NCBI RefSeq assembly: GCF_028745735.1
Contig: NZ_JAQZSM010000010.1
Location: forward strand, 62,001-126,000
DNA: 64,000 bases
Source: Roseinatronobacter alkalisoli
GTDB taxonomy: Bacteria; Pseudomonadota; Alphaproteobacteria; Rhodobacterales; Rhodobacteraceae
Reading direction: 5' to 3'
Of the stretch, positions 18,780 through 29,480 are shown in pieces. The notes beneath the pieces were generated by a model. It searched no databases. It saw only the letters and a list, made by a program, of their open reading frames with translations, and was not told the DNA's origin. The position numbers were made by a program, and so were the translations under genes. How positions within the stretch are numbered: the stretch's first letter is position 1; each line of letters starts with the position of its first letter.

Positions 18780-19606
18780 TGGCCCAGCACCGCAAGGCGC
18801 AGCGCATCCGTCACCTGTGGTGTCTGCCCGAACCAGCGTTCAAACCCCGGAACCGCCTGATGCAACAACATGCCCAACCCATCCACAACCGGATTGCCCC
18901 GCGCCTGCGCGCGTATCAGCAAATCCGTCATCAAGGGCGTATAGACGATATCTGTGACCAGCGCCGCCGGTGACAGCCCGTCCAGCGGCATGTCCAATGC
19001 AGGATTCCCCGCCATGCCCAATGCGGATGTATTGACCAGTAAGCCCAGATCATCCAGCCCTTGCGCCCGGTCCGCCCAGTCGCAAACAGTAACCTGCGGG
19101 CCGAATTCCTGTGCCAGCCCTTCGGCGCGTGCACGTGTCCGGTTGCACAGCCGCACTTCCGGCACACCCGCATCCAGCAACGCCACGATAACGGCCCGCG
19201 CGGCACCACCGGCACCCAGCACCAGCGCCGGCGCGGCACTTGGCTGCCAATCCGGCGCGGCCTGTCGCAAATTCGCTAAAAACCCGTAACCATCGGTATT
19301 ATCAGCATGAATATGCCCGTCAGCGCCAAATGTCAGCGTATTTGCCGCGCCAATTCGGGCCGCGACAGGCGACACATCATCCGCCAGCGTCAGAACATGT
19401 TCTTTATGCGGGATCGTAACATTGGCCCCTACAAAACCCATACGCGGCATGGTCCGCAACACGGTTTCCAGATCCGCCGGGTCAACATGAAGCGGCACAT
19501 AATGCCCGCGCAAACCATATTCGCGCAGCCATGACCCATGCACCAGCGGCGATTTGCTGTGCCCGATCGGGCACCCGATGACCCCGGCCAGTGGTATCTT
19601 GCTCAT
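18776..19606 (-). CDS. aroE: Shikimate dehydrogenase
   Basis: NADPH-dependent reduction of 3-dehydroshikimate to shikimate in aromatic amino-acid synthesis. The 276 residues show the substrate motif [12 protein letters not shown], the catalytic Lys in [11 protein letters not shown], Asp in [13 protein letters not shown], the cofactor loop [12 protein letters not shown] with NRTRARAE selecting NADPH, and [18 protein letters not shown] at the C-terminus. It overlaps maf (upstream) and coaE (downstream) by four bases. Confidence 0.96.
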
Positions 19607-20196
19607 CCCTCAATCACCCCGCGCAAGGACAAATAATTCAGCAATTCCAGCAAGGGCAGGCCAAGTATGGTGAAATAGTCGCCCTGCACCTGAGCAAACA
19701 GCCGCACGCCTTCTTCTTCCAGCTTATAGGCACCCACGGATTCGGAAATGCCGGGCCAATTCCGCGCGATATAGCTGTCCAGATAGCTGTCTGAAAACTG
19801 GCGCATCGTCAACCGCGCCACACCCACATGTCGCCAGACCGGCTCTCCATTCTGATACAGCACTGCCGCCGACAAAAGCTGATGCGTCTGGCCACGCAAT
19901 TGCAGCAACTGGGCGCGCGCCTTCTGCGCGGTTTCGGGTTTCTCCAGACATGCGCCTTTCAGTGACAACACCTGATCACATCCCAACACCAATGCATCCG
20001 GCCTGCGCCCCGCAACCTTGCGCGCCTTGCTTTCGGCCAGCGTGTCGGCAATATCGCGCGGCGGCGCCCCATCCATGACCAAAGCGTCACGGATCGCGTG
20101 TTCATCAACCCGCGCCGGATGAACATCCACATCCAGCCCCGCGTTGCGCAACATTTGCGCCCGAATGCCAGAACCAGAAGCCAGAATGAAGGACAT
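19603..20196 (-). CDS. maf: Maf-family nucleotide pyrophosphatase
   Basis: Maf proteins hydrolyse non-canonical or pyrimidine nucleoside triphosphates to monophosphates. The 197-residue protein has the N-terminal LASGSGIRAQMLRNAGLD, DALVLGCDQVLSL and SESVGAYKLEEEGVRLF. Two features deviate: SGSGIR replaces the common SxSPRR, and GCDQV is the YceF-like form. It is the first gene of the leftward operon. Its ATG touches a perfect DnaA box at the left edge of the origin region, so its promoter lies inside oriC. Confidence 0.9.
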   Translation of the reverse strand: MSFILASGSGIRAQMLRNAGLDVDVHPARVDEHAIRDALVMDGAPPRDIADTLAESKARKVAGRRPDALVLGCDQVLSLKGACLEKPETAQKARAQLLQLRGQTHQLLSAAVLYQNGEPVWRHVGVARLTMRQFSDSYLDSYIARNWPGISESVGAYKLEEEGVRLFAQVQGDYFTILGLPLLELLNYLSLRGVIEG

Positions 20197-20341
20197 GTGG
20201 ATAACCCTGTGTGAATCCCGCAGGACAACGAAGGTGCAAAACACCAACAACCCCGCCATTATGGCTTTGCTGTCATTTTACCCACCCTCACGCAAGGCCC
20301 CATGGCGGAAAATCCACATGTTCAATGCTGAATCCGGGCAC

Positions 20342-20350
20342 TGTGGATAA
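20342..20350 (-). promoter_or_regulatory. DnaA box
   Basis: A perfect TTATCCACA on the minus strand (TGTGGATAA on plus), at the left border of the AT-rich tract of oriC. The other perfect boxes are at the maf start and 20472-20480. Confidence 0.8.
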
Positions 20351-20461
20351 CATGAAATTCTGGTTTCTGAAATTTGTATATTCTTGTTTCGTTCCACTAT
20401 AACTTATTGAATTATATTACACTTTAAGAAAAATCTTACATTTCTGACATTTGTATTCCTG

Positions 20462-20494
20462 TGTGTATAACTGTGGATAAAAACCTTATCCCCA
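20462..20494. promoter_or_regulatory. Cluster of three DnaA boxes at the right side of oriC
   Basis: TGTGTATAA (one mismatch), TGTGGATAA (perfect) and the inverted TTATCCCCA (one mismatch) lie within 33 bases. Close spacing of strong and weak boxes next to an AT-rich tract is the usual architecture of a DnaA assembly site. Confidence 0.75.
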
Positions 20495-20574
20495 TATCAA
20501 CAGGCCCTACTAACAACATCATTTCCTTTCTATATTTCTTTATTTATTAGAAGGGACAGATGAAAGGCTGAAAC

Positions 20575-21015
20575 ATGCTCGCAACCCTCTATCCCTGGAT
20601 CAAGGCACTTCACATCATGGCTGTCATCAGCTGGATGGCCGGGTTGTTCTATCTGCCACGGCTGTTTGTCTATCACGTTGAACGTGGGCATGATGCACAG
20701 GGCATGGATAATGTGTTTCAGGTCATGGAACTGAAACTGCTGCGTGTCATCATGAACCCCGCAATGATCGTGGCATGGGTCAGTGGGCTGACATTGGCTG
20801 CAATGCCATGGGTGCTGAATACCAGTGCTATCTGGCCCTACAGCAAACTGGCAGCACTGATCGGCATGACATGGTTTCATATCTGGTGCGCCAGACGGCG
20901 GCGCATTTTTGCAGAAGGCGGGAATACACTGACCGGGCGGCACTACCGTATGATGAACGAAGTGCCCACTGTGCTGATGGTCATCATCGTTCTTTCAGTC
21001 GTGGTGAAATTCTAG
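20575..21015 (+). CDS. hemJ: Protoporphyrinogen IX oxidase HemJ
   Basis: A 146-residue inner-membrane protein with four hydrophobic helices. HemJ oxidises protoporphyrinogen IX to protoporphyrin IX in bacteria lacking HemG/HemY. The signature [27 protein letters not shown] with its haem-liganding histidine is intact, as are [22 protein letters not shown] and [18 protein letters not shown]. It is the first gene to the right of oriC and is transcribed away from it, towards rho, as in many alphaproteobacteria. Confidence 0.95.
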
Positions 21016-21076: not shown

Positions 21077-21092
21077 CGTTTCACGTGAAACA
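21077..21092. promoter_or_regulatory. parS: parS site 1 (ParB-binding centromere sequence)
   Basis: CGTTTCACGTGAAACA: 15 of 16 bases of the consensus TGTTTCACGTGAAACA. The only parS of the four that is intergenic, between hemJ and rho. Confidence 0.85.
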
Positions 21093-21149
21093 GTCGCACC
21101 AATATCCCGCCACCCCCTGAACCGGGCATGCGGGCAAGCAGGATTTCCC

Positions 21150-22466
21150 ATGTCTGATGTCATGACCCCGGATGCCGAAACCGATATCGAAATCGAAGAA
21201 CCCGGCAGTCTGAACCTGGCCGACCTGAAGGCGAAAAGCCCGGCTGAGCTGTTGGCTATGGCCGAAGATCTGGAAATTGAAAACGCCCCGTCCATGCGCA
21301 AGGGCGAGATGATGTTTTCCATCCTGAAAGAACGCGCCGAAGAAGGCTGGACCATCTATGGCGATGGCGTGATAGAAGTGCTGCAGGACGGGTTTGGTTT
21401 TCTGCGCTCGCCAGAGGCAAACTATCTGCCCGGCCCTGATGATATTTATGTCTCCCCTGAAATGATCCGCCAGTATTCCCTGCGCAGTGGTGATACAATT
21501 GAAGGTGAAATTCAGGCGCCCGCTGAAAATGAACGCTATTTTGCCATTACCAAGGTAACCCAGATCAATTTCGACGGTCCGGAAATGGCCCGCCACAAGG
21601 TTCATTTCGACAACCTGACGCCGCTGTATCCGGATGAACGCCTGTGGATGGAAACCAGCGATCCCGCCACAAAGGACCGCTCTGCACGGATCATCGACAT
21701 TGTGTCGCCCCTGGGCAAGGGGCAGCGCGCGCTGATCGTCGCGCCCCCGCGCACGGGTAAAACCGTTCTCCTGCAAAACATCGCCCACAGCATCGAGAAG
21801 AACCACCCCGAATGCTATCTTATCGTTCTGCTGATCGATGAACGCCCGGAAGAAGTGACGGACATGCAGCGTTCCGTGAAGGGAGAGGTGATTGCCTCCA
21901 CCTTCGATGAACCGGCGACCCGCCACGTTGCCGTGTCCGAAATGGTCATCGAAAAAGCCAAGCGTTTGGTCGAACATAAACGCGATGTGGTCATTTTGCT
22001 GGATTCCATCACCCGCCTTGGCCGCGCGTTCAACACCGTTGTACCCAGCTCTGGCAAGGTGCTGACAGGTGGGGTCGATGCCAACGCCCTGCAGCGCCCC
22101 AAGCGCTTCTTTGGGGCCGCACGCAACATCGAAGAAGGTGGTTCACTGACCATTATCGCAACAGCCCTGATCGACACCGGCTCGCGCATGGATGAAGTGA
22201 TCTTTGAAGAATTCAAGGGCACAGGTAACAGCGAAATCGTTCTTGACCGCAAGGTTGCTGACAAGCGCGTATTCCCGGCCATCGACATTCTGAAATCCGG
22301 CACCCGGAAAGAAGAACTTCTGATCGAGAAGATGGACATGCAGAAAACCTTCGTTCTGCGCCGTATCCTGAACCCGATGGGCACGACAGATGCGATCGAA
22401 TTCCTGATTTCCAAACTGAAGCAAACCAAGACCAACAGCGATTTCTTCGACTCGATGAACGCATAA
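21150..22466 (+). CDS. rho: Transcription termination factor Rho
   Basis: The hexameric RNA-dependent ATPase that ends transcription at Rho-dependent terminators. The 438 residues include an N-terminal helix bundle ([21 protein letters not shown]), the cold-shock-like RNA-binding domain ([20 protein letters not shown]), the Walker [12 protein letters not shown] near residue 200, [12 protein letters not shown] and the C-terminal secondary RNA site with [26 protein letters not shown]. The frame is open upstream through hemJ in another frame; [10 protein letters not shown] after AGGA is the sensible start. An ATG four codons later is an alternative. Confidence 0.97.
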
Positions 22467-22476
22467 GGGGGCCGCG

Positions 22477-23763
22477 ATGGATACGATTTTCGCGCTGGCC
22501 TCTGCCCGCGGGAAATCGGGCGTCGCGGTCATTCGTCTGTCTGGTCCGCAAGCACATGCTGTCGCAGGCGCGATGGCAGGCACCCTTCCGCCGCCGCGCC
22601 AGACCGCATTGCGCAAGCTGGTTACCCCCGCTGGCGAATTGCTGGACCATGGGCTGGTCGTGGTGTTCGGCCGCGGTGCCAGCTTCACCGGCGAAGATGT
22701 GGTCGAGTTCATGTTGCATGGCAGTCTTGCAACCGTTGCTGCGGTCGAATCCTGTCTGGCGCAGGATCACGGCTTGCGGCTTGCGGAACCGGGCGAATTT
22801 ACCCGCCGTGCGCTGGAAAATGGCGTCATGGACCTCACGCAGGTCGAAGGGCTTGGCGATCTGCTGGATGCCGAAACTGAAAGCCAGCGCCGGCAAGCGC
22901 TGCGCGTGCTGGAAGGGGCAATCGGAAAACTGGTTGGCGGGTGGCGTAACCATCTGCTGAAAGCCGCCGCATTGGTTGAAGCTGGCATAGATTTCGTTGA
23001 AGAAGATGTTGGGAACTGGGATGACCAGATTCTTGTGGAACTTCAAACTGTTCGGGACCAACTGCAGTCTGAAATTGCAGGGCAGGGCGCACGTGAACGG
23101 GTACAGACCGGGTTTGAAATTGCGCTGGTCGGTTCCGTCAATGCGGGAAAATCCACCCTGCTGAATGCACTTGCGGGGCGCGAAGCGGCGATCACATCAG
23201 AAATTGCCGGAACCACCCGCGACGTGATTGAATTACGCATGGATATCGGCGGTTTTGCGGTCACGTTGCTGGATACGGCCGGTCTGCGCGAAACAGATGA
23301 AGTGATCGAATCCATCGGGATTGAACGCGGACAGGCGCGCGCCAGGCATGCCGATATGCGCATCATCTTGTGCGATTCGCCCTTTGACCCACCACCGGTA
23401 GCAGTTTTGCCAGATGATATTGTTCTGTTCAGCAAGGCCGATCTGTATCCTGACCAACCGGGTGGTGTTTCTGGTAAAACAGGGCAAGGGCTGGATATGC
23501 TGCTTGACCGGATCAAATCAGAGCTGGCGCAACGGGTAGCGCGAGACGGGGTGACAGTGCGCCGCCGCCATCTACAGGCGATGCTGTCCGCGCAAGCCGC
23601 CCTGAGCGAAGCGATTGATAAATTGTCGTCACAGGACTATATCCCGGAACTGTTGGCAGCCGACATCCGCCAGGCAATCAACGCGCTTGATTCGCTGATT
23701 GGTAAAATAGATGTAGAGGATCTGCTGGGGGATATTTTCAGTTCCTTCTGTATCGGCAAATAG
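22477..23763 (+). CDS. mnmE: tRNA modification GTPase MnmE
   Basis: With MnmG it installs carboxymethylaminomethyl groups at uridine 34 of tRNAs reading split codon boxes. The 428 residues have the folate-binding N-terminal domain ([22 protein letters not shown]), the GTPase domain with P-loop [14 protein letters not shown] from about residue 219, GTTRDVIE and DTAGLRET, and the invariant C-terminal FCIGK, whose cysteine takes part in the reaction. Its partner mnmG follows directly. Confidence 0.97.
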
Positions 23764-23766
23764 GAG

Positions 23767-23782
23767 TGTTTCACGTGAAACA
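23767..23782. promoter_or_regulatory. parS: parS site 2, at the start of mnmG
   Basis: A perfect 16/16 TGTTTCACGTGAAACA. It overlaps the mnmG start region: both candidate start codons (GTG at 23766 and GTG at 23775) touch or lie in the palindrome. Confidence 0.92.
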
Positions 23783-25637
23783 TTACGACGTCATTGTGAT
23801 TGGTGGTGGCCATGCCGGAACAGAAGCCGCGCTTGCGGCCGCGCGCATGGGGGCGCAGACGGCGCTTGTCACCTTCCGCAAGCAGGATCTGGGCGTCATG
23901 TCCTGCAACCCCGCGATTGGCGGTCTGGGCAAGGGCCATCTGGTGCGTGAAATTGACGCCCTTGATGGGCTGATGGGTCGCGCCGGGGACTATGCTGCAA
24001 TTCAGTATCGGCTGTTGAACCGGTCCAAGGGGCCAGCGGTGCAGGGGCCACGGGTTCAGGCAGACCGCAAACGCTACGCTGAATTTGTCGGGCGCACCGT
24101 TCTGGCCGCTGACGGGCTGGATGTGATAGCCGGTGAAGTGACCGCATTGTTGATAGAAGGGGACTCTGTTGTCGGCATAACGCTGAACTCCGACACAGAT
24201 ATACGCGCGCAATCCGTTGTTCTGACCACCGGCACATTCCTTGGTGGCAAGGTGTTCATCGGCGATGTGAGCTTTGCGGCGGGGCGCATGGGAAATGCTG
24301 CATCCAGCATACTTGCCCAGCAATTGCGCGGGCTTGGCCTGCCGATGGGGCGGTTGAAAACCGGAACGCCGCCACGGTTGGACGGAAAAACCATCAACTG
24401 GGACATACTGGAGAAGCAACCGGGTGATGAAGACCCCGAATTCCTGTCCTTCCGGACCGACCATGTCATCGCAAATCAGGTGGCTTGCGCAATCACGCAT
24501 ACCAACCCGCAAACCCATGATATTATTCGTGAAAACCTGGCGCTGTCAGCCATGTATGGTGGCCATATCGAAGGGGTGGGGCCGCGCTACTGCCCGTCGA
24601 TCGAAGACAAGATCACCCGCTTCGCTGATAAATCATCGCATCAGGTCTTTCTGGAACCCGAAGGGCTGGATGATGACACGGTATATCCCAACGGCATCTC
24701 CACATCTTTGCCGGAAAATGTGCAAGAAGCCTATGTCCGGACAATTTCCGGGTTGGAGGATGTTCGCATCCTGCAGCCGGGTTACGCCATTGAATATGAT
24801 TATCTGGACCCCCGCGCGCTGAAATCCACCTTGCAATTGAAGGCGCTGAACGGGTTTTACCTGGCGGGGCAGATCAACGGCACAACCGGGTATGAGGAAG
24901 CGGGCGCACAAGGCTTGGTCGCGGGGCTGAATGCCGCGCTTGGTGCATTGGGGCGCCCGCCCGCAAGTTTCAGCCGGGCCGACAGCTATATCGGTGTCAT
25001 GATTGATGACCTGATTTCCCGCGGCGTGGCCGAACCCTACCGCATGTTTACATCGCGCGCAGAATACCGCCTGTCCCTGCGCGCCGATAATGCAGATCAG
25101 CGGTTGACCCCGCTGGGGCTTGATCTGGGCTGCATTTCTGATGAACGCACGGCCGCGTTTCTGACCAAGACCGACCGGTTGGACCGCGCCCGCAACCAGA
25201 TGCGCGCCGTCACGTTCACATCGCGGCAGTTGAACGCGAATGGCCATAAGGTCAGTGAAGACGGGGTCCGCCGCGACGCGCTGACTTTGCTCGGGTTGCA
25301 GGGGTTTGATTTCGCGACACTGGAATTGCTCGCGCCAGATCTGGCGCAGATCGATGCGCAAACCAAGGCGCAGCTGGAGAAAGAGATGGTGTATCACGCC
25401 TATCTGGAACGGCAGAATGCACAGATCAGGGCGCTGAAGGCTGATGAGAATCGTCGCTTTCCGGATGGGTTCGATTTTGCGTCCGTCAGCGGGTTATCGC
25501 ATGAGTTGATTGGCAAACTGATGACGGCGCAGCCCGAAACGATGGCGCAGGCCGCCAGAATTGACGGCATGACCCCGGCCGCGCTGGTGCTGCTGCTGTC
25601 TCGTTTGCAGCAACGCGAAAGGCGTGCGTCGGCATGA
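23775..25637 (+). CDS. mnmG: tRNA uridine-5-carboxymethylaminomethyl synthesis enzyme MnmG (GidA)
   Basis: The FAD- and NADH-dependent partner of MnmE. The protein has the FAD loop [44 protein letters not shown], the [12 protein letters not shown] motif, [17 protein letters not shown]-type sequence and the C-terminal [10 protein letters not shown]. The start is chosen at GTG in GTGAAACATTACGAC because AGGAG lies eight bases before it. The frame also opens at a GTG at 23766, which would add FHV and read through the whole parS palindrome, but it overlaps the ribosome site. Between mnmE and rsmG on the same strand, with an ATGA overlap to rsmG. Confidence 0.96.
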
Positions 25638-26251
25638 CAGAAACCACGATTGCCGGCATCAATGTTTCACGTGAAACAATGGACCGGCTGAATGCATATT
25701 CCGCGCTGCTGGAGAAGTGGAATCGCAAGATAAATCTGGTTGCGCCCGCCACGATACCGACCCTGTGGCAGCGGCATATCGTTGATTCCGCGCAGGTATT
25801 TGCCCTGACACCCCGCGATGTAGGGGTTTGGGCGGATTTCGGATCCGGGGGCGGCCTGCCCGGTGCGGTGTGTGCGATTCTGGCGGCGGAGCATATGCCG
25901 GAGTGTCATTTTACCCTTGTTGAAAGCGATAAACGCAAGGCCGCGTTCCTGATGACAGTTGCGCGTGAACTGGGCCTGCCGGTGCGTGTGCTGGCCCAAC
26001 GGGTTGAGGCAGTAGATCCGTTGAATGCGGGGGCGGTTTCTGCGCGCGCGCTGGCGCCGCTCCCGCAACTATTGGCATGGATCAGCCCGCATCTTGCACA
26101 GGGGGGAATAGCGCTTTTGCCGAAGGGAAAAACATGGCAGGAAGAACTTGAAGCCGCCCGTTCTGAATGGCAATTTGCTGTTACTCCGCATATCAGCCAG
26201 ACCGACCCGGCGGCGCGTTTGCTGGAAATAAAGGATCTTTCGCGTGTCTAA
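25634..26251 (+). CDS. rsmG: 16S rRNA (guanine(527)-N7)-methyltransferase RsmG (GidB)
   Basis: Methylates G527 of 16S rRNA with S-adenosylmethionine. The 205 residues contain [22 protein letters not shown], the SAM-binding [28 protein letters not shown] and [14 protein letters not shown]. The segment NVSRET near residue 11 is encoded by a perfect parS palindrome. The ATG overlaps the mnmG stop, and its 3' end overlaps the parA GTG start by eight bases. Confidence 0.96.
25663..25678. promoter_or_regulatory. parS: parS site 3, inside rsmG
   Basis: A perfect TGTTTCACGTGAAACA within codons 10-15 of rsmG. Confidence 0.92.
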
Positions 26252-27059
26252 TCCAGGAACCACCCGAATCATTGCGGTTGCCAATCAGAAGGGTGGCGTA
26301 GGCAAGACGACAACGGCCATCAACCTGGCTTCCGCATTGGCGGAGCAGGGCATGCGGACATTGCTGATTGATCTGGACCCGCAAGGAAATGCCTCGACCG
26401 GGCTGGGGGTGGAACCGGGGGCGCGAAAATACACCACATATGACCTGATTTTTGCAGAGGTTCCGGCAGGAAAAATCATCGTCCAGACGGAACAGGACGG
26501 TCTATATCTTGTCCCTGCAACGACTGATCTTTCGTCGGCGGATATTGAACTGATGTCGCGGGCCAGACGGTCGCATCTGCTGCATGATGCGCTGCGCCAG
26601 CCGGATATATTCCACGAGGGGTTTGACTATATCCTGATTGATTGCCCGCCATCGCTGAGTTTGCTGACGGTCAATGCGATGGTGGCGTCGCATTCGGTTC
26701 TGGTGCCGCTACAGGCGGAATTTTTTGCGCTGGAAGGATTGTCGCAACTTATGCTGACTGTACGCGAATTGCGTGACACGGCGAATCCGCAGCTGCGCAT
26801 CGAAGGTATTTTGCTGACGATGTATGACAAGCGCAACAATCTGGCCCAACAGGTCGAAGAAGACGCACGCGGGAATCTGGGTGATCTGGTCTTTGAAACC
26901 ATTATTCCGCGCAATGTACGTATCAGCGAAGCGCCATCCTATGCGGTGCCGGTCTTGCGCTATGACACGCAGTCAAAAGGGGCGGTGGCCTATCGGCAGC
27001 TTGCTGTAGAATTGCTGACAAAACATAATAAATCCCTAAGGGAAAGGGCAGTATCATGA
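26244..27059 (+). CDS. parA: Chromosome partitioning ATPase ParA (Soj)
   Basis: A Walker-type partition ATPase that moves ParB-bound origins to the cell poles. The 271 residues have the deviant Walker A NQKGGVGKTTT (Lys16 and Lys21), the Walker B stretch YILIDCPPSLSLLTVNAM and the switch sequence LVPLQAEFFALEGLSQL. There is no N-terminal DNA-binding extension, as usual for chromosomal ParA. It starts with GTG inside the end of rsmG; its stop overlaps the parB ATG, so parA-parB are coupled. parS sites lie on both sides. Confidence 0.97.
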   Translation: MSNPGTTRIIAVANQKGGVGKTTTAINLASALAEQGMRTLLIDLDPQGNASTGLGVEPGARKYTTYDLIFAEVPAGKIIVQTEQDGLYLVPATTDLSSADIELMSRARRSHLLHDALRQPDIFHEGFDYILIDCPPSLSLLTVNAMVASHSVLVPLQAEFFALEGLSQLMLTVRELRDTANPQLRIEGILLTMYDKRNNLAQQVEEDARGNLGDLVFETIIPRNVRISEAPSYAVPVLRYDTQSKGAVAYRQLAVELLTKHNKSLRERAVS

Positions 27060-27946
27060 CCGAACGCAAGCTGGAACGCCGTGGGCTGGGCCGGGGTCTA
27101 TCCGCGTTGATGGCGGATGTCACGGCAACGACGCAGACCGATAGCGCAGTGGGCGAACACCAGGGTCGTGAACAGCGCTTGCCGGTTGAAAAACTGGTGC
27201 CGAACCCTGATCAGCCACGGCGGCATTTTGATGACACCTCGCTTGCTGAACTTGCGGCTTCGATCAAGGAAAAGGGCGTTATCCAGCCGCTGATCGTCCG
27301 GATGAAGGGCGATATGTATGAAATCATCGCGGGCGAGCGGCGCTGGCGTGCCGCGCAGCGTGCGCAGGTTCATGAAGTCCCTGTAATCATTCGGGATTTT
27401 ACCGATACTGAAGTGCTGGAAATCGCGATTATCGAGAATATCCAGCGCGCCGACCTGAACCCCGTGGAAGAGGCGATGGGCTACCGCCAGTTGATCGAGC
27501 GGTTTGGCCATACGCAGGAAAAACTGGCAGAGGCGATGGGCAAAAGCAGATCGCATATCGCCAACCTGATGCGCTTGCTGACCTTGCCTGAAGATGTGCT
27601 GGCCATGTTGCGCGAAGGGCGGTTAAGTGCCGGTCATGCGCGGGCGTTGATTACCGCTGATCTGCCATCGACATTGGCCCGCAAGGTTGTGGCCGAAGGG
27701 CTGAGCGTGCGTCAGACAGAGGCGCTGGTGAAAAAGCCAGATGTGGAATCGCGCAAGAAAACCGCAAGCCGTAGCAACCAGAAAGATGCGGATCTGATTG
27801 CCCTGCAAAATGACCTGTCAGCGGCGCTGAAACTGCCTGTCGATATTACCTATGACGGCGGCGGCAAGGGGCAGGTGGTCATCAAATACCGGTCGATGGA
27901 AGAAATGGACCGTCTGTGCAAGGTGTTGGGCAACCCTATTGTATAA
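27056..27946 (+). CDS. parB: Chromosome partitioning protein ParB (Spo0J)
   Basis: The CTP-dependent clamp that loads at parS and spreads along DNA. The 296 residues show the N-terminal ParA-stimulating segment RRGLGRGLSALMAD, the CTPase/ParB-box region with ELAASIKEKGVIQPLIVR and IIAGERRWRAAQRA, ENIQRADLNPVEEA, and a helix-turn-helix (HTQEKLAEAMGKSRSHIANLMRL) that reads parS. The C-terminal dimerisation domain ends in VIKYRSMEEMDRLCKVLG. Its 3' end overlaps the convergent hemW gene by 11 bases. Confidence 0.97.
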   Translation: MTERKLERRGLGRGLSALMADVTATTQTDSAVGEHQGREQRLPVEKLVPNPDQPRRHFDDTSLAELAASIKEKGVIQPLIVRMKGDMYEIIAGERRWRAAQRAQVHEVPVIIRDFTDTEVLEIAIIENIQRADLNPVEEAMGYRQLIERFGHTQEKLAEAMGKSRSHIANLMRLLTLPEDVLAMLREGRLSAGHARALITADLPSTLARKVVAEGLSVRQTEALVKKPDVESRKKTASRSNQKDADLIALQNDLSAALKLPVDITYDGGGKGQVVIKYRSMEEMDRLCKVLGNPIV

Positions 27947-29093
27947 GCAGTTCCCGCAGCAGGGCGTTCAGAATAGGGCGTCCTGTTGCGGTTGCGGCGA
28001 TGCGGTCGGCGTTTCTGGTCATGAACCCGTCTGACACCAGTGAATCGATACGCTCAGCAGGCAGGGAATGCCCAGCAAGTGTTTGATAACGTTGAATATC
28101 TGCCCCTTCCGACAGGCGCAACGACATCATCAGATATTCCAGCGCCTGTTCATCCCGGGGAATGGTCCGGCGCGGGCTTTCGCCATGGCCTTTGGTTGTA
28201 ACCTGATCCAGCCATGTCTGGGGGTGCAGGGGTGTTTGCGTGGCGATACGGGCGTTGCCAGTGGTCAGCCGCCCATGTGCGCCGGGGCCAATGCCTGCAT
28301 AATCGCCATAGCGCCAGTAAATCAGGTTATGGCGCGATTGCGCGCCGTCGCGGGCATGGTTGGATATTTCATAGGCGGGCATGTCATGTGCATCACAAAT
28401 TTCCTGTGTTATCATATACATATCAGCGGAAATATCGTCATCTGGCAGCCCTTGCAGCCCGCCTTTTGCATGCCGCGCCCCGAATGCAGTGCCGGATTCG
28501 ATGGTCAGTTGATATAGCGATAAGTGGTCAACGGCCATAGACAGCGCTTCCTGCAATTCGGCCTGCCATTGTGGCAATGTCTGGAATTGCCGCGCATAGA
28601 TCAGGTCAAAGCTGACACGATCAAACGCTGCACGGGCAATATCAAACGCCGCGCGCCCTTCGGCCACGGAATGCAGGCGGCCAAGGCGACGCAGATCAGT
28701 GTCATTCAGGGCCTGAATGCCCATGGACACGCGATTGACGCCCGCATCGGCATAGGCGCGAAAGCGCCCCGCTTCGACGGATGAGGGGTTTGCTTCCAGC
28801 GTCACCTCGAAATCATTGGCGGTGGTCCAGCGGGCGCGAATGCGGTCCAGCAGGGCGGCAACGGTTTCGGGGTCCATCAGGCTGGGGGTGCCGCCGCCGA
28901 AGAAAACGGTGTTCAGCAACCGGTCGCCGGTATCAAGTGCGATGCGATCAATTTCCGACAGATAGGCGGCAGCCCATGCGCGTTGATCGATATGGGCCGC
29001 GACATGGCTGTTAAAATCGCAATAGGGGCATTTCGACTGGCAGAACGGCCAATGAATATACAGGCCGAAGCCGCCATTCTGCCAGTCTTGCAT
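27936..29093 (-). CDS. hemW: Radical SAM haem chaperone HemW
   Basis: A 385-residue radical SAM protein of the HemN/HemW family. The iron-sulfur cluster motif is CQSKCPYC (Cys18, Cys22, Cys25), preceded by GLYIHWPF. FFGGGTPSLMDP and GVNRVSMGIQALND are present. The shorter N-terminus without the HemN extension identifies HemW, a haem carrier that inserts haem into respiratory enzymes, rather than the anaerobic coproporphyrinogen dehydrogenase. It is last in the leftward set rph-rdgB-ridA-hemW and overlaps parB at its 3' end. Confidence 0.93.
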   Translation of the reverse strand: MQDWQNGGFGLYIHWPFCQSKCPYCDFNSHVAAHIDQRAWAAAYLSEIDRIALDTGDRLLNTVFFGGGTPSLMDPETVAALLDRIRARWTTANDFEVTLEANPSSVEAGRFRAYADAGVNRVSMGIQALNDTDLRRLGRLHSVAEGRAAFDIARAAFDRVSFDLIYARQFQTLPQWQAELQEALSMAVDHLSLYQLTIESGTAFGARHAKGGLQGLPDDDISADMYMITQEICDAHDMPAYEISNHARDGAQSRHNLIYWRYGDYAGIGPGAHGRLTTGNARIATQTPLHPQTWLDQVTTKGHGESPRRTIPRDEQALEYLMMSLRLSEGADIQRYQTLAGHSLPAERIDSLVSDGFMTRNADRIAATATGRPILNALLRELLIQ

Positions 29094-29096
29094 GGT

Positions 29097-29480
29097 TCAG
29101 CCTTTCAGCGCGGTCACTTCGATCTCGATCAGCATTTCCGGCTTGATCAGACCGGCGATGACCATCGTGGCGGCGGGGCGGATTTCGCCCATTGCCTCGC
29201 CCAATGCGGGCAGCAGGTCATCCAGCAGGGCGGCATCGGTCAGGGTGTATTGCACACGCACAATGTCGTCCATGGCAAAACCGCCATCGGCAAGGGCCTT
29301 GGCGATGGTGGCAAAACAGTTGCGCGCCTGATCGGCCACGCCTGCGGGCATGGTCATTGTGGCATAGTCATAGCCGGTGACACCGGACACAAAGCACCAA
29401 TCCCCTTTGACCACAGCGCGGCTGTAACCCATGGTTTTTTCGAACGGGGAACCGGTTGAGATGCGTTTCACGTGAAACAT
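29097..29480 (-). CDS. RidA-family protein
   Basis: A 127-residue YjgF/YER057c/UK114-type protein. RidA members hydrolyse reactive enamine/imine intermediates made by PLP enzymes; many subfamilies have other or unknown roles. Conserved bits are SRAVVKGDWCFVSGVTGYD, VRVQYTLTD and PAATMVIAGLIKPEMLIEIEVTAL. In the arginine position of the deaminase active site the sequence reads EIRPAATMV, so the Arg seems kept. The first codons (MFHVKR) are encoded by a parS palindrome, and the gene overlaps rdgB by 13 bases. Confidence 0.88.
   Translation of the reverse strand: MFHVKRISTGSPFEKTMGYSRAVVKGDWCFVSGVTGYDYATMTMPAGVADQARNCFATIAKALADGGFAMDDIVRVQYTLTDAALLDDLLPALGEAMGEIRPAATMVIAGLIKPEMLIEIEVTALKG
29464..29479. 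promoter_or_regulatory. parS: parS site 4, in the rdgB/ridA overlap
   Basis: CGTTTCACGTGAAACA: 15 of 16 bases of the consensus. It lies where the end of rdgB and the start of the ridA-type gene overlap, so these bases serve two reading frames as well as ParB. Confidence 0.85.

Follow-up and report, generated by a model that had tools for sequence, protein, structure and literature searches.

Origins of replication next to maf have been described as conserved in Rhodobacteraceae on the basis of DoriC, in the accessible part of a report on Ketogulonicigenium vulgare (PMC4793288). According to the accessible portion of a second study, oriC was located in 101 Rhodobacteraceae strains, and not in eight, using box clusters, the local GC minimum, GC disparity, and parAB (PMC6699656). 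The origins of Caulobacter crescentus (Cori) and Rickettsia lie in the gap between hemE and COG1806, and Cori carries five CtrA sites, as stated in the available part of that paper (PMC1914354). For Bacillus subtilis, the available text describes a basal unwinding system in which DnaA boxes, a short spacer, and at least three DnaA-trios form the opening unit (PMC8287927).

We analyzed a window of 64,000 nucleotides from Roseinatronobacter alkalisoli, in which an earlier note had placed the chromosome origin at the gap between maf and hemJ. The data supported this placement. The maf-hemJ gap is almost certainly the oriC of the main chromosome, as judged by its site composition, the genome-unique clustering of its DnaA boxes, its conservation, GC skew, the clustering of parS sites, and a dnaA locus free of boxes.

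Composition of the maf-hemJ gap

The genes on both sides of the gap, maf and hemJ (UPF0093), were found to diverge from it as had been described. The gene order to the left of maf was aroE, coaE, and then an exonuclease-family gene (dnaQ-like), and the order to the right of hemJ was rho, mnmE, mnmG, rsmG, parA, and parB, with mnmG and rsmG named by reading their translations. The strong AT-richness reported for the gap was also evident. Its GC content was 0.39 vs 0.595 for the 64,000-nt window, and in a scan with 20-base steps the 12 lowest-GC stretches of 378 bp all started at 20161-20381 and all overlapped the gap. The long ORFs of a greedy ORF set pointed outward within 30 kb of the gap, with 21 of 29 on the minus strand to the left and 15 of 24 on the plus strand to the right, but this lean nearly vanished over the whole contig C2 (37 of 71 minus to the left, 32 of 56 plus to the right).

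Table 1. Features of the maf-hemJ gap and its surroundings, in window positions
Feature	Position	Strand	Remark
maf, left flank of gap	19603..20196	-	Pfam PF02545
oriC candidate, maf-hemJ intergenic gap	20197..20574	.	378 bp
DnaA box, perfect TTATCCACA	20196..20204	-	final A doubles as the first base of the maf start codon
DnaA box, perfect TTATCCACA, middle	20342..20350	-	
Candidate unwinding region (one of two), lowest-stability 40 bp in the gap	20399..20438	.	nearest-neighbour energy
Degenerate CtrA-like repeat TTAAGAAAAATCTTA	20424..20438		2 mismatches
DnaA box, one mismatch	20462..20470	-	
DnaA box, perfect TTATCCACA	20472..20480	-	
DnaA box, one mismatch	20486..20494	+	
Weak DnaA box ATATCAACA, two mismatches	20494..20502	+	one-base overlap with box 20486-20494
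Trinucleotide block TACTAACAACATCAT, conserved; candidate site of DnaA entry onto a single strand, as a variant DnaA-trio	20508..20522	+	
Pyrimidine/AT-rich tract, second candidate unwinding region	20523..20549	.	
hemJ (UPF0093), right flank of gap	20575..21015	+	Pfam PF03653
parS, one mismatch	21077..21092	.	
parS, perfect, in first codons of mnmG	23767..23782	.	named by reading translation
parS, perfect, inside rsmG	25663..25678	.	named by reading translation
parA and parB	26244..27946	+	Pfam
parS, one mismatch	29464..29479	.	

The consensus TTATCCACA was used for the DnaA box. The stretch 20194-20577 contained three perfect boxes and five boxes with at most one mismatch, in comparison with means of 0.02 and 0.24 in shuffled sequences, and 0 of 500 shuffles that kept the dinucleotides matched the three perfect or the five near boxes. 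Position and shuffles confirmed the three perfect boxes claimed by the earlier note, except that the first shares base 20196 with maf and so lies partly outside the gap; the two one-mismatch boxes, one on each strand, were both present. Over the whole window, 13 sites with at most one mismatch were counted vs 7.11 expected, and the striking part was their clustering only.

Position of the gap in the genome

The draft genome of 4,836,725 bp contained 20 perfect boxes. Three of these lay in the gap and formed the sole cluster of perfect boxes, while the remaining 17 were single, spaced 63 kb or more from one another or located on separate contigs. A reversed control pattern also occurred 20 times in the genome, so that the total was not raised and the clustering alone was special; by a rough hand estimate, three of 20 randomly placed sites would fall within 285 bp with a chance of about 1 in 100,000. 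The gap was also the only place with at least three boxes per 400 bp among the 29 one-mismatch hits of contig C2, and its counterpart was the only such place among the 208 one-mismatch hits in 1.48 Mb sampled from the same-genus genome G020, these two sets being the ground covered by the exclusion of one-mismatch clusters elsewhere. The expectation that a box scan would show the gap as the densest cluster was therefore borne out for perfect boxes genome-wide and for one-mismatch boxes over C2 and the G020 samples. Three of the 22 perfect boxes of G020 clustered, at the matching gap, and two of 15 in G021 lay together at hemJ of that genome, as its sole such pair.

A possible second cluster, of four one-mismatch boxes at G000:C1:170711-171429, was present among the first 100 of the 637 one-mismatch places in the genome. 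It was rejected as an origin because all four boxes were inside one long ORF and the GC content was 54-60%. Three of the four boxes were downstream of the likely ATG of this ORF, the product of which, on reading of its translation, looks like a sugar-binding protein.

The cumulative G-C minimum of contig C2 (149,740 bp) was at window position 22,629, 2.1 kb to the right of the gap, on a curve that was nearly flat there (-1521 at 20,500 to -1538 at 22,629). The 10-kb skew bins were all positive from contig position 80 kb rightward, and the eight bins to the left of the gap comprised five negative and three weakly positive ones (20-50 kb, +0.015 to +0.024). Skew in G020 was determined from 74 sampled stretches of 20 kb, or 1.48 of 3.48 Mb, with the contig of 3,479,920 bp assumed to be the whole circular chromosome. 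The cumulative minimum fell in the interval 360-405 kb, equally low at either end, and the box cluster at 374.07-374.36 kb was inside this interval; the cumulative maximum came after the 2.10 Mb sample, about half the contig away from the minimum. A skew minimum at the gap, proposed beforehand as a check, was thus found nearby on its own contig and, in the sampled relative, in an interval containing the matching gap.

The genome was scanned for parS palindromes with up to two mismatches allowed. Four sites were found in total, all of them at window 21077-29479, 0.5-8.9 kb to the right of the gap, and the reversed control gave 0. Four sites within the same limit were placed alike in G020, where the reversed control gave one, counted on both strands. 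With up to three mismatches, the window contained five parS vs 0.17 expected. The two perfect sites are within coding sequence, so that protein and ParB site constrain each other.

A gap that separates two diverging genes, with a DnaA box over the maf start codon, could also be a mere divergent promoter region at which DnaA regulates maf and hemJ, with replication starting elsewhere, for example at dnaA. A denser box cluster near dnaA was looked for as a refutation of the origin. The full-length DnaA-domain match of the genome was on another contig (C24), and the surrounding 3,486 bp contained 0 boxes with at most one mismatch; the dnaA locus of G020 had one such box and was about 315 kb from the gap. 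These data, the skew minimum in the interval of the G020 gap, and the parS cluster at the gap argue against a mere promoter region, which we regard as very improbable. Equally little probability attaches to a DnaA reservoir near, and not at, the origin, of the type of E. coli datA or DARS: box clusters outside oriC exist in other bacteria, but at this place AT-richness, gene divergence, the change of skew, and the parS sites occur together, and the genome scan for perfect boxes gave no other cluster.

Eleven weak DnaA-domain hits with nearly equal scores were seen in G021. Our guess is that they probably represent the ATPase of an insertion sequence present in many copies.

Conservation and candidate opening region

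A total of 113 loci (L001-L113) were collected, and in 94 of them maf and hemJ were neighbors. The 19 left out were cut by contig ends (L020, L049, L058), came from other families (L021-L030), were DnaA-domain loci (L031-L033), or were from Paracoccus (L079, L082, L092). Merging of 16 identical gaps gave 78 distinct maf-hemJ gaps, including that of the window (L001), mostly or all from one family. These were divided into a close group of 27, made up of 19 own or same-genus loci and 8 added for similarity, and 51 others. At the 10 loci belonging to other families in the class, maf was not found within about 1.5 kb of hemJ, and a search of the 4 kb upstream gave no maf hit at the three Paracoccus loci. 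The maf-gap-hemJ loci of L060, L087, and L112 were Rhodobacteraceae-like, although their records were titled Verrucomicrobia, Nitrospira, and Planctomycetota; this suggests mislabelling or contamination of the bins.

At least two boxes with at most one mismatch were present in 75 of the 78 gaps; the exceptions were L072, with no such box, and L065 and L094, with one each. All 27 close-group gaps had at least three (mean 3.89 vs 0.11 in shuffled sequences), while among the other 51 gaps, 48 had at least two and 39 at least three (mean 3.31 vs 0.12). The minus-strand box at the maf start was kept, with at most one mismatch, in 25 of 27 close-group gaps, and 67 of the 78 gaps had such a box no more than 40 bp from the maf start, with starts extrapolated from the alignment. 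On the hemJ side, 26 of 27 close-group gaps had a minus box with at most one mismatch located -118 to -103 from hemJ (20472-20480 in the window), and 26 likewise had a plus box at -92 to -76 (20486-20494 in the window). The place of the middle box was occupied at this threshold in only 8 of 27, and the weak box at 20494-20502 read ATATCCACA or was perfect in most close-group gaps.

The earlier note had also counted GANTC sites and the degenerate CtrA-like inverted repeat in favor of an origin, and neither gave support. Two GANTC sites were in the gap, and 141 of 500 shuffles had as many. GANTC was rare throughout the window (90 vs 209.6 in shuffles), and the gaps contained 26 sites in the close group (shuffled 32.3) and 39 in the 51 others (shuffled 92.3); GANTC/CcrM control of the gap was rejected, as there was no excess. 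The CtrA motif TTAA-N7-TTAA with at most one mismatch was absent from the gap. Six sites with at most two mismatches, a number equalled in 152 of 500 shuffles, were found, so that the CtrA-like repeat, although present, belongs to a class of sites at chance level. Close-group gaps had CtrA sites with at most one mismatch in 7 of 27 (6.1 shuffled) and perfect sites in 1 of 27 (0.4 shuffled), and CtrA control of the gap was rejected, as neither the window nor the close group showed an excess. Among the 51 other gaps, 8 contained perfect CtrA sites, in comparison with a shuffled mean of 1.1 and a maximum of 5 in 30 sets; because of this excess, CtrA may be relevant in other genera.

To the right of the hemJ-side boxes, the layout was adjacent boxes, a GC-rich spacer, TACTAACAACATCAT, and then the pyrimidine-rich AT tract. 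Alignment of the 27 close-group gaps showed a block CTAC...ACATCATT at this place. Of the 78 gaps, 50 carried CATCAT no more than 60 nt from the anchor box (17 of 27 in the close group), with a shuffled mean of 2.5 and a maximum of 9. Under the published DnaA-trio rule of at least three consecutive trios within 16 bp of a box, the window had two trios, and at least three were found in 16 of 78 gaps vs 40.0 in shuffled tails, the trio strand being taken as opposite TTATCCACA from the 5'-tail wording of the rule. When the box strand was read, at least three NAN triplets were found in 50 of 78 gaps vs 20.0 shuffled (maximum 32 in 200 sets), a reading that was chosen after seeing the sequence and compared with shuffles that keep base content only. 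Since the relatives share ancestry, the CATCAT and NAN controls overstate significance, and the trinucleotide pattern on the box strand is put forward as a lead. A first control (mean best score 4.32 vs 1.54) is confounded because its shuffles also destroyed the boxes. Two locations relative to hemJ predominated for the center of the least stable 40 bp, -60 to -20 (38 of 78 gaps) and -220 to -140 (39 of 78), and that of the window belongs to the latter class.

Possible mechanism and comparison with known origins

By analogy with DnaA biology, DnaA-ATP would bind the boxes, chiefly the minus-strand pair at 20462-20480 and the facing plus-strand boxes at 20486-20502. DnaA would then spread onto one strand of the trinucleotide and AT-rich stretch at 20508-20549, or of the unstable stretch near 20399-20438, and the opened stretch would allow helicase loading and the departure of two forks in opposite directions. 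ParB bound at the four parS to the right, as in ParB biology elsewhere, would then separate the new origins. We also offer, as a conjecture from sequence that we think unlikely to hold in full, that Rhodobacteraceae origins open via a lineage-specific variant of the DnaA-trio (CTAC...CATCAT, on the box strand) and that one and the same DnaA assembly also extends over the start of maf and thereby causes a brief drop in Maf at every initiation. The 78 origin gaps form a set for testing the conserved block and the maf-start box, and the position of oriC anchors the window on the chromosome, so that the strand and dosage of genes can be interpreted relative to the direction of the forks.

The gap resembles Cori and the Rickettsia origin, as these appear in the available part of their description, in being an AT-rich gap next to a haem gene with several DnaA boxes (PMC1914354). 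It differs in its flanks, which are maf and hemJ and not hemE and COG1806, and in lacking any CtrA site of at most one mismatch, in contrast to the five sites of Cori, so that neither the hemE/COG1806 flanks nor the several TTAA-N7-TTAA sites of a Caulobacter-type origin were found here. The hemE gene was on another contig, and in G020 it was about 172 kb from the gap. A profile search with PF03618, which we take to be the family of COG1806/DUF299, gave no match in G000 or G020.

With the basal unwinding system of B. subtilis, as far as the available text describes it, the gap shares adjacent boxes, a short GC-rich spacer, a trinucleotide block, and an AT-rich stretch; it differs in having two trios in the window and not at least three consecutive ones, and in carrying its triplet pattern on the box strand, where the strand of the published rule is itself inferred (PMC8287927).

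The closest likeness was to the origins predicted in Rhodobacteraceae. Like the Ori-Finder/DoriC predictions given in the accessible part of one report, the gap is beside maf (PMC4793288), and like those in the accessible part of the other, it is near the GC-disparity minimum, at a local GC minimum, and near parAB, and carries TTATCCACA boxes, the predictions having used TTATCCACA and two other box motifs (PMC6699656). The box cluster was in an AT-rich intergenic gap adjacent to maf, close to parAB and parS, and near the GC-skew minimum, both on its own 150-kb contig and in the sampled G020. Nothing in the gap differs in kind from these predictions as they are given there. What is added here is detail, namely the box map, the overlap of a box with the maf start codon, and the CATCAT block; the start-codon box and the block, which was not specifically sought, did not appear in the parts of the literature examined. 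An oriC beside maf is, on these partial sources, an already known kind of origin in Rhodobacteraceae, to which the R. alkalisoli gap adds another member.
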